Part shown: piece by piece, positions 62,704-64,000 of the stretch
Layout of the letters: each line of letters opens with the position of its first letter
Numbering within the stretch: position 1 is the first letter of the stretch
DNA from: Litorimonas cladophorae
Lineage (GTDB): Bacteria > Pseudomonadota > Alphaproteobacteria > Caulobacterales > Maricaulaceae
Length of the DNA: 64,000 nt
NCBI RefSeq assembly: GCF_014652455.1
Contig: NZ_BMYV01000001.1
Coordinates: 310,001 to 374,000 of the forward strand
Direction of reading: 5' to 3'
The notes under the pieces: generated by a model
What the model was told of the DNA's origin: nothing
The model's input: only the letters and a program-made list of their open reading frames with translations
The model's database searches: none
Made by a program: the position numbers and the translations under genes

Positions 62704-63501
62704 TCACGACTTAACCTCACACAATCCATTGAGTTTGTTTGCGGCTTCAGACGCGCCAAATACCTTTATCGAATTTCGCGAAAAATCCTCATCACGTAAA
62801 TTATTGATCGGCAGTGTTAACTCTAATGGTGAACGTCGACCCTTGTAGTCTTTGTCCAACCACCACTGGCTATATTGGGACAAGGCTTCAAGACGATCAG
62901 ACTTCCATTCCCTGTACCAAGGCTCATCAGTTATGCGCAAAGCATTGCTTTCCTCCCCTTGGGCAGTCTTGATAGCTACAACCAAACTTAGATTGTTTTT
63001 GTTCAAATCTTTCGCTTCTACAAAATCATTCAAATTGTCAAAATACTCTCCATCGCCTTGGGGGTTAATGACGACGACACGAAAATCCTGTTGGTGCGCA
63101 TTAACCAGCTTTTTTTCGTCATCGGGAAAACTACTAAACAACTTTTCCCTTGATCTGTTGTAGTGCTCACCTTGCTCCGCAGAGCTTTTTAAAATCATGC
63201 CCGCTTGTGATTTGGGCCAGAGAAAAACAACGTTCCCAAGCTCTGGCACATTCACATATCCACCAGACCCAGACCAATCATTATTGAAACTATGGGGGGA
63301 CATACCTTGGAGCTTTCCCGCGTGATAAACACATAATCGGCTAAATCCCTCCGCTGTGTAGATCTCACCGCCACGTTCAAATGACACCTTCATCGCCAGG
63401 TCCCAAATTCGGCTATCAGGAAAACCGTCTCTAAACTCCTTAATCGGCTTGCAGGACGCCACGGCTAGTAAAGCGAACAAAGCAAATATTAGTTTTTTCA
63501 T
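62704..63501 (-). CDS. Putative lipoprotein of unknown function
   Basis: The 265-residue precursor has a lipoprotein signal (MKKLIFALFALLAVASC, Cys17) followed by a soluble domain with many aromatic and charged residues and no motif I recognise. Composition differs from the neighbours: more Lys, Asn and Ser codons and visibly lower GC, as expected of an acquired or fast-evolving gene. No clear ribosome site precedes the ATG. It is separated from DUF1697 by 52 bp on the same strand. Presumably exported and membrane-anchored; no function is proposed. Confidence 0.72.
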   Translation of the reverse strand: MKKLIFALFALLAVASCKPIKEFRDGFPDSRIWDLAMKVSFERGGEIYTAEGFSRLCVYHAGKLQGMSPHSFNNDWSGSGGYVNVPELGNVVFLWPKSQAGMILKSSAEQGEHYNRSREKLFSSFPDDEKKLVNAHQQDFRVVVINPQGDGEYFDNLNDFVEAKDLNKNNLSLVVAIKTAQGEESNALRITDEPWYREWKSDRLEALSQYSQWWLDKDYKGRRSPLELTLPINNLRDEDFSRNSIKVFGASEAANKLNGLCEVKS

Positions 63502-64000
63502 TGAGCAGTGTCGTCCATTCTACATTCGCCAAGCTCTATGCTTGACCTCTCGAAGACGTATTCTCGTAATAAACTTCAAGAGTCAGAGTGAATCCTAGTA
63601 AAAGTCAGCTAATTTTAAGTTAGCTGCAGGATCTGCTTTATGAAACTGTATGAGAATTCCGAGCGCCCCATGATCTCTTTTTTGGGATGCCAAGGCCTTC
63701 GCTCACACCCTCACGGCCCGATTAGGCCGATCTATCCTTTTTATGTTAAATAAAATATTCAGGCGGTTCAAAGCTTTATGAGCAATTTTGAGAGAATGAT
63801 CCTCGCTTTCAAAACCTGTGATAACTTACACAGGTTCTTTCGGACAGGGGACAGGGTAGCGCTCTCTATCTCGTTCGGAGGACGGTGGGTCTGAGCGTTT
63901 TGGTGTGAGAACCAAAATGGTGCCGGGACTTTTAGAGCGAGCGCACGACATTGCGTGTCCGGGTCTGGTAGGCAGGCTCCGACGTGTAACTATGACCAGC
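63502..64000. other. Gene-free 499 bp at the window end with several inverted repeats
   Basis: No convincing coding sequence is seen on either strand. The first half is AT-rich, with one short stem (CGGCC-CGATTA-GGCCG, 63714-63729) followed by a weak T tract that could be a plus-strand terminator. The second half holds closely packed inverted repeats (next entry). I found no tRNA, rRNA or tmRNA tag sequence here. Confidence 0.7.
63813..64000 (+). ncRNA. Candidate structured leader or small RNA, cut by window edge
   Basis: Inverted repeats follow one another. AACCTGTG/CACAGGTT (63813-63820 with 63829-63836) is first. CGCTCT/AGAGCG (63860-63865 with 63934-63939) encloses the perfect hairpin TTTTGGT/ACCAAAA (63898-63904 with 63911-63917). 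GACA/TGTC (63947-63950 with 63956-63959) and CTGGT/ACCAG (63965-63969 with 63995-63999) follow. This density suggests a folded RNA, perhaps a cis-regulatory leader of a gene beyond the window. I do not recognise the family, and the strand is a guess. Confidence 0.35.

Follow-up and report, generated by a model that had tools for sequence, protein, structure and literature searches.

The window, i.e., the whole 64,000-nt stretch analysed here (C1:310001-374000 of a 3.02-Mb assembly), runs out in a densely folded non-coding segment, 63813-64000, which raises the question of what kind of RNA or regulatory DNA this is. The original prediction, made from the packing of inverted repeats, was a regulatory leader (e.g., of a ribosomal-protein operon) or a small RNA outside known families. 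Its inventory of the segment was borne out: nine pairs of inverted repeats of at least 6 nt were found, one of them a self-palindrome; both the CGCTCT/AGAGCG pair (63860-63865 and 63934-63939) and the perfect 7-bp hairpin (TTTTGGT, 63898-63904; ACCAAAA, 63911-63917) were present; and the ORF list held no frame of at least 60 aa there. Repeat density as a signal fared less evenly: the repeats are present, folding was no better than chance, and only conservation and covariation among copies went beyond it. Folded as RNA, 63836-64000 reached z = -0.89, with 41 of 200 shuffles folding equally well or better, and the 367-nt RNA reached z = -1.47 (5 of 100 shuffles equal or better); folding energy, not being significant, was therefore left out of the evidence. 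Only part of the window's inverted repeats turned out to be conserved helices. The CGCTCT/AGAGCG pair, which had been singled out as enclosing the hairpin, exists in the window but is rarely kept as a pair (both halves in 3 of 123 copies, singly in 12 and 13), and AACCTGTG/CACAGGTT (63813-63836), which straddles the promoter, could form 7 or 8 of its 8 pairs in 9 of 17 copies of the same genome and in only 15 of 71 aligned copies.

The folded stretch is only the 5' part of a larger RNA, of which ~200 nt more lie beyond the window (Table 1), and the many-copy family with a linked protein to which it belongs is invisible from the window sequence alone. With a 401-base query from the window end, BLAST found 32 places in the same genome, representing 30 copies (L009-L038), as two places (L025 and L028) were second pieces of the same copies and were dropped. 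The 30 copies align over ~420-480 bp, starting before and ending past 63813-64000, and are intergenic, between unrelated genes and on both strands (gene settings divergent for 11, co-directional for 12, and convergent for 7, by crude ORF calls). A covariance model of the 3' domain, R1, gave 43 matches in this 3.0-Mb genome; the match of the window copy lies at C1:374002-374132, and R1 has no significant match in the window itself since the 3' domain lies past the window end. Downstream of the RNA of the window copy, the + strand showed no terminator-like site.

Table 1. Features of the window copy and its upstream neighbour (window positions unless a contig coordinate is given).
Feature	Position	Strand	Basis or remark
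Lipoprotein-like ORF, 265 aa, divergent upstream neighbour	62704..63501	-	ORF list; outside element
Less conserved upstream region with second ATCC box (63734-63737)	63728..63798	+	Inspection
-35-like element ATCCTC (family mostly ATCCYC)	63799..63804	+	17-nt spacer to -10-like element
-10-like element TAACTT	63822..63827	+	Near-invariant in the family at positions 2 (A) and 6 (T)
Structured RNA, first 167 nt, predicted start G63834	63834..64000	+	Alignments of copies
Whole window-copy RNA, 369 nt	ends ~C1:374202 (~200 nt past window)	+	Conserved 3' end of copies
Helix P1, 5' strand UCUUUCGGAC	63836..63845	+	A3 covariation count
Helix P2 core, 5' strand GUAG	63856..63859	+	A3 covariation count
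Helix P2 core, 3' strand CUAU	63866..63869	+	A3 covariation count
Helix P1, 3' strand GUUCGGAGGA	63873..63882	+	A3 covariation count
Hairpin TTTTGGT-GTGAGA-ACCAAAA	63898..63917	+	Inverted-repeat scan; variants by eye
AGAGCG, candidate central-helix 5' strand	63934..63939	+	Alignment by eye

Four helices of this RNA covary, i.e., show the compensatory base changes that mark a structured non-coding RNA, and we have little doubt that the copies form a structured RNA gene family. Named helices were counted on three alignments: A1 (49 of 64 listed rows, with ten copies without clear anchors and near-identical rows excluded), A2 (67 distinct rows, fitted to the covariance model and hence leaning towards it), and A3 (71 of 86 listed rows, with 19 copies, most of them with inserted hairpins, excluded). 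In the 3' domain, the outer helix CCGCGTG/CACGCGG was paired throughout A1 (49 of 49 sequences) and showed double changes at 4 of its 7 pairs, and the inner helix was paired in 86.8% of cells; the A1 covariation score was 0.381 (shuffles, 0.217; slid, 0.144 at most), and one measure (pair types) was matched by 9 of 500 shuffles. With distant copies added (A2), 99.6% of outer-helix cells were paired and double changes were seen at 6 of 7 pairs, for a score of 0.507 (0.221 in shuffles). Near the 5' end, P1 (UCUUUCRRAC/GUUYGRRRGA) was paired in 98.0% of cells over the 71 copies of A3 with double changes at 4 of 10 pairs, and P2 in 93.6% of cells with double changes at 3 of 7 (score 0.377 vs 0.239 in shuffles, with two of five measures matched by 9 and 7 of 500 shuffles).

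Beside P1 and P2, the predicted fold includes the helix CCGCGTGG/CCACGCGG, and by eye the central GTGAGA-loop hairpin and further helices vary in step, e.g., the counterparts of the 7-bp hairpin change their stems around the GTGAGA loop and the central helix appears as GGAGTG/CGCTTC or AGAGCG/CGTTCT. The AGAGCG of the window copy would thus probably pair with the CGTTCT just beyond the window end. Hairpin modules are exchangeable at fixed points of the RNA, and the copies are mosaics as a result. The size of the RNA and its conserved unpaired motifs, GUAAAACA and GGUAUUCCAUC, would also be compatible with a ribozyme. Rfam, with its families of leaders, 6S, tmRNA, RNase P, HEARO, and introns, gave 0 matches in the window at the gathering threshold, and among the rows listed for 18 loci of this genome and genus at E up to 10 and for 13 diverged loci at E up to 1, none fell on the element; an identity as tmRNA, 6S, or RNase P RNA was dropped, and a tRNA/tmRNA scan of the window found none. 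Covariation without a covariance-model hit is what the original prediction had named as the mark of a new RNA, and both searches it had proposed came out in this way, with helices that covary among copies from relatives and no Rfam match on the element. In the parts of the literature and of the family libraries consulted, no such RNA is described in this group.

Upstream of the RNA, the copies share a promoter-like arrangement, i.e., a box that is mostly ATCCYC, a spacer of 17-18 nt, a YANNNT box, usually 6 variable nt (6 nt between TAACTT and G63834 in the window copy), and then the near-invariant GTTCTTTC, with the change to near-invariance falling abruptly at the RNA start. Among 71 aligned copies, the -10-like box has A at position 2 in 70 and T at position 6 in 69. 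The pattern NTCC-N19/20-YANNNT-N5-7-GTTC was found in 124 of 138 genus copies, compared with 0.55 in shuffles, and a looser pattern in 19 of 35 distant copies, compared with 0.25 in shuffles, failing in the other 16. This arrangement is suggestive of a sigma-70-type -10 element with a start at G63834, and it is very probable that the RNA has its own promoter. As the -35-like box is not TTGACA, involvement of an activator or another sigma factor seems likely; a consensus promoter scanner did not report it, and the -35-box motif was not enriched elsewhere in the window (2 matches vs 1.72 expected). Many copies of the same genome have a second ATCC-like box ~65 nt upstream (by eye), and the region at 63728-63798 may possibly contain an activator or operator site. 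At L055, L069, and other loci, ATCCYCRTTT-like motifs recur at least twice within ~150 nt upstream of the RNA in the manner of an operator cluster (by eye). A candidate coding start at ATGATCC was dropped, as it sits in the promoter region.

In some copies, few per genome, a small ORF follows ~60-170 nt after the 3' domain and encodes a protein of ~63-162 aa with an M[PST]R start, a KL..LE stretch, and often then a Y.DLPPP.PE motif. A profile from 13 sequences gave 1-5 matches per genome. In the genome of the window, the ORFs lie at C1:1439135-1439581 and C4:16321-16656, with a third, weak match at C1:84079 that has no RNA; behind the RNA of the window copy, no M[PST]R ORF was found and rpmF comes next. 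Differences at codon positions 1, 2, and 3 numbered 435, 298, and 791 (ten pairs of five sequences), and this excess at third positions fits translation under purifying selection. The protein profile matched 30 of 137 family genomes and the RNA 34, with an overlap of 27 (Fisher p 6e-19, genomes treated as unrelated). The three protein-positive genomes without an R2 match (G001, G385, and G331) all have weak protein matches, and in G331 the RNA appeared at E 0.001 when the protein locus was searched; the protein was absent from 7 of the 34 RNA-positive genomes (G007, G163, G358, G428, G429, G211, and G431).

At the level of loci, the RNA lies just upstream on the same strand at 32 of the 42 distinct protein places examined (63 listed), i.e., at 25 of the 30 best places and 7 of 12 further distinct ones, a count that is partly built in because 11 of the 42 are profile seeds picked for adjoining RNA; among the 31 non-seed places, the RNA is upstream of 21. 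At L286, a tandem ORF of the protein family stands between the RNA and the protein place. Ten places have no RNA, of which three are at contig ends (L279, L303, and L305); those away from contig ends (L284, L288, L293, L295, L300, L306, and L308) are mostly weak or partial protein matches. For ten proteins, no family came near its cut-off, and searches of Pfam, PHROGs, NCBIfam, and PDB sequences gave no credible relative; weak PHROG rows were phrog_24564 (E 3.7e-4) and phrog_17698, a 'transposase' (E 1.3e-4 over 33 residues). AlphaFold2 modelled one protein subfamily (four sequences) as helices only, with low global confidence (pTM 0.27). We consider it likely that the M[PST]R protein is the true partner of the RNA. 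Small proteins of genus g23, at L283 (G187) and L286 (G424), have a CPxCGR stretch resembling half a zinc ribbon, L253 (G361) has two tandem small ORFs after the RNA instead of one, and in G003 an RNA+protein unit is followed at a distance of a few hundred nt, on the opposite strand, by RNase P RNA (L216:3496-3875).

The element was found in a narrow range of genomes. R1 matched 13 of 18 genus genomes, with 1 to 50 matches per genome, and 17 of 398 genomes from a sample of the order, none of them outside the family; R2, a model built from near and distant copies, matched 34 of the 137 genomes of the family, spread over 6 of its 19 genera, and 1 of 385 genomes sampled across the class, namely that of the window. 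Searches over more than 40 genomes used stricter filters, so that absences in the large searches may hide weak matches. Named relatives among the matches listed were uncultured Caulobacterales MAGs and Hellea sp. MAG-194 (Hellea being placed in Maricaulales, Robiginitomaculaceae at NCBI), and the Agathobacter (L076), Verrucomicrobiales (L095), and Clostridia (L115) loci were without the element by profile. Plasmid and phage collections gave no match by DNA or by one protein, and one exact pattern found 0 stretches in viral contigs. A number of RNA copies lie within ~200 nt of contig ends in G005, G008, G011, G013, and G343. Copy numbers from drafts may be underestimates, as the repeat may break assemblies.

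Many copies occupy sites that are shared between species. The flanks of the 30 copies were compared with 168 loci, a partly redundant subset of the copies from other genomes, and 22 of 30 downstream flanks matched flanks of other species' copies, 19 of them positionally (the others being L015, at another operon end; L027, through paralogous GTPases; and L014, through the small protein itself). Upstream flanks matched for 10 of 30 copies, nine on the same side and one (L018) with a downstream flank, and matches across species almost always agreed in side and orientation. At rpmF, the RNA was present in 6 of 15 retrieved loci (G000, G005, G008, G010, G013, and a fragment in G002); G016 carries the RNA elsewhere and has an rpmF locus without it. 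At hslU, 5 of 18 genomes (G000, G002, G005, G008, and G009) have the RNA no more than ~170 nt upstream, and in G011 and G013 the same pair of flanking genes encloses no RNA; the flanks of these empty sites are too diverged for a target-site duplication to be recognised.

The copies have also exchanged sequence within genomes. For 91 full-length copies from eight genomes (G010 excluded), the nearest neighbour was in the same genome in 59 cases (mean 16.0 and maximum 29 in 500 shuffles), and positional counterparts were closer than the mean of that genome's other copies in only 9 of 21 comparisons. A copy is thus as similar to others in its genome as to its positional counterparts, which argues for exchange between copies. 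Recent copying was seen in five groups only, too few to tell gene conversion from insertion: three near-identical units at unrelated sites in G187 (96.6% identity over ~320 bp) and recently copied pairs in G003, G004, G015, and G358, with RNA and ORF both shared by the G003 pair (L216/L217). Tracts of identity mostly stop near the RNA 3' end and vary in their start points, and in three copies no pair of terminal inverted repeats joins both ends. In G010, another dispersed palindromic repeat, GATAGGTCCCGCATCT...GCGGGATGACA, stands directly before the RNA of copies L046, L097, L130, L138, L100, and L063.

The best explanation that we can offer is a new RNA-protein repeat element that exists as RNA+protein and RNA-only units, a statement to which, taken as a whole, we give even chances. 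The sequences themselves show the copy number, the covarying fold, the promoter pattern, the RNA-protein linkage, the sharing of sites with exchange between copies, and the near-identical copies at unrelated sites; we infer transcription, RNA-protein binding, a division of labour in cis and trans, an element rather than a housekeeping role, and the function of the RNA-protein system. The unit would consist of a promoter, a structured RNA of ~350 nt, and, in few copies, the M[PST]R protein gene. Each copy would be transcribed from its own promoter and then fold, and the protein, made only from RNA+protein units, would bind the core of the RNA, both in cis and in trans; RNA-only copies, the window copy included, would be derivatives in which, as we propose, the RNA is retained owing to the action of the protein on it. 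Copies may stay long at intergenic sites while recombination swaps modules among them, and occasionally a unit would be copied to a new site. As the small protein has no enzymatic-family match, such mobility would need host recombination or an unrecognised enzyme. We lean slightly towards element character over a cellular role. A bolder version, in which a ribonucleoprotein genetic element (i.e., an independently transcribed, ribozyme-sized RNA that spreads and exchanges modules in the genome, assisted by a tiny RNA-binding protein from few master copies) has settled the same intergenic sites in many species, is in our view less likely than not.

Shared sites are also compatible with a conserved cellular family of regulatory or structural RNAs, in which dozens of paralogous genes would provide dosage or diversity, the protein would be a dedicated chaperone, and copies, far from selfish, would persist through their function, with gene conversion keeping them alike. 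The sites before rpmF and hslU that are common to several species, helices maintained by compensatory change, and a promoter pattern on 124 of 138 genus copies are all in keeping with this idea, but the distribution is patchy (R1 is absent from 5 of 18 genus genomes and R2 from 103 of 137 family genomes), matches range from 1 to 50 per genome, and hslU sites are found empty and occupied with the same flanking genes; we regard a cellular family as rather unlikely. The possibility that the RNA is an autoregulatory 5' leader of the small protein gene, with other copies leading other genes, draws on the position of the RNA upstream of the protein gene and on several copies with a housekeeping gene less than ~120 nt downstream on the same strand. 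It is improbable given that neighbouring genes are unrelated, that the next downstream gene is on the opposite strand for 11 of the 30 copies (crude ORF calls), and that this genome has two clear protein matches (the third being weak) and 43 RNA matches. The gene beyond position 64000, which the original prediction had suggested reading, does encode a ribosomal protein (rpmF, L32, starting 486 nt past the window end and followed by eno), but the leader of a ribosomal-protein operon that it had suggested finds no support here, as rpmF is one of ~43 neighbourhoods, with neighbours on either strand, and homology with the RNA-free rpmF locus of G016 begins ~120 nt before rpmF, beyond the RNA 3' end. 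An rpmF leader was likewise dropped, since only 6 of 15 rpmF loci have the RNA and one of the 43 matches in this genome is at rpmF.

A type III toxin-antitoxin-like system, in which the RNA would neutralise the small protein encoded downstream and RNA-only copies would be orphan antitoxins, could account for the order of RNA and protein, the patchy distribution, and the RNA-only copies; we think it very improbable, as a 7-bp unit is the only tandem repeat of the window copy and the protein, predicted to be helical with low confidence, has no family match. Least probable is a plain DNA repeat of the MITE, REP, or BOX type whose hairpins have no role as RNA: the copies are indeed dispersed, modular, and intergenic, but compensatory changes extend across genera, the promoter pattern is present, and terminal inverted repeats are not.

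To our knowledge, large structured bacterial RNAs that occur in dozens of copies and have a protein family of their own linked to them are few. Provided that RNA and protein are indeed a pair, hundreds of natural variants of a compact RNA-protein system become available for structural studies. One could also test whether RNA families of this kind are selfish elements, cellular RNAs amplified for dosage, or regulators, and in what way paralogous RNA genes of one genome exchange sequence when they sit at shared sites. HEARO / IscB omega-RNA elements, which Rfam includes, are similar in having a large structured RNA in many copies per genome, some with a protein gene and many RNA-only, whereas the element has no Rfam match and its protein is 63-162 aa long, lies downstream of the RNA, and has no recognised nuclease domain; a linked nuclease gene would mark a HEARO/IscB or TnpB-type RNA-guided element, and none of the linked small ORFs matched a nuclease when compared with Pfam, NCBIfam, and PDB sequences. 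Type III toxin-antitoxin loci share the order of RNA gene and small protein gene but differ in the tandem-repeat antitoxin, as the window copy has only a 2.1-copy 7-bp unit, and in the toxin families, none of which the protein matches. Ribosomal-protein leaders resemble the window copy in its position upstream of rpmF, and the difference is that rpmF is one of many neighbourhoods. BOX, ERIC, and MITE repeats are likewise dispersed, modular, and intergenic with hairpins, in contrast to an RNA of ~370 nt with covarying helices, its own promoter pattern, a linked protein, and no terminal inverted repeats found. The large ornate bacterial RNAs GOLLD, ROOL, and OLE (PMC12286853) are comparable as large multi-helix RNAs; the element differs from them in having no Rfam match and in being found here in one alphaproteobacterial family only, with dozens of dispersed copies and a small protein family of its own.
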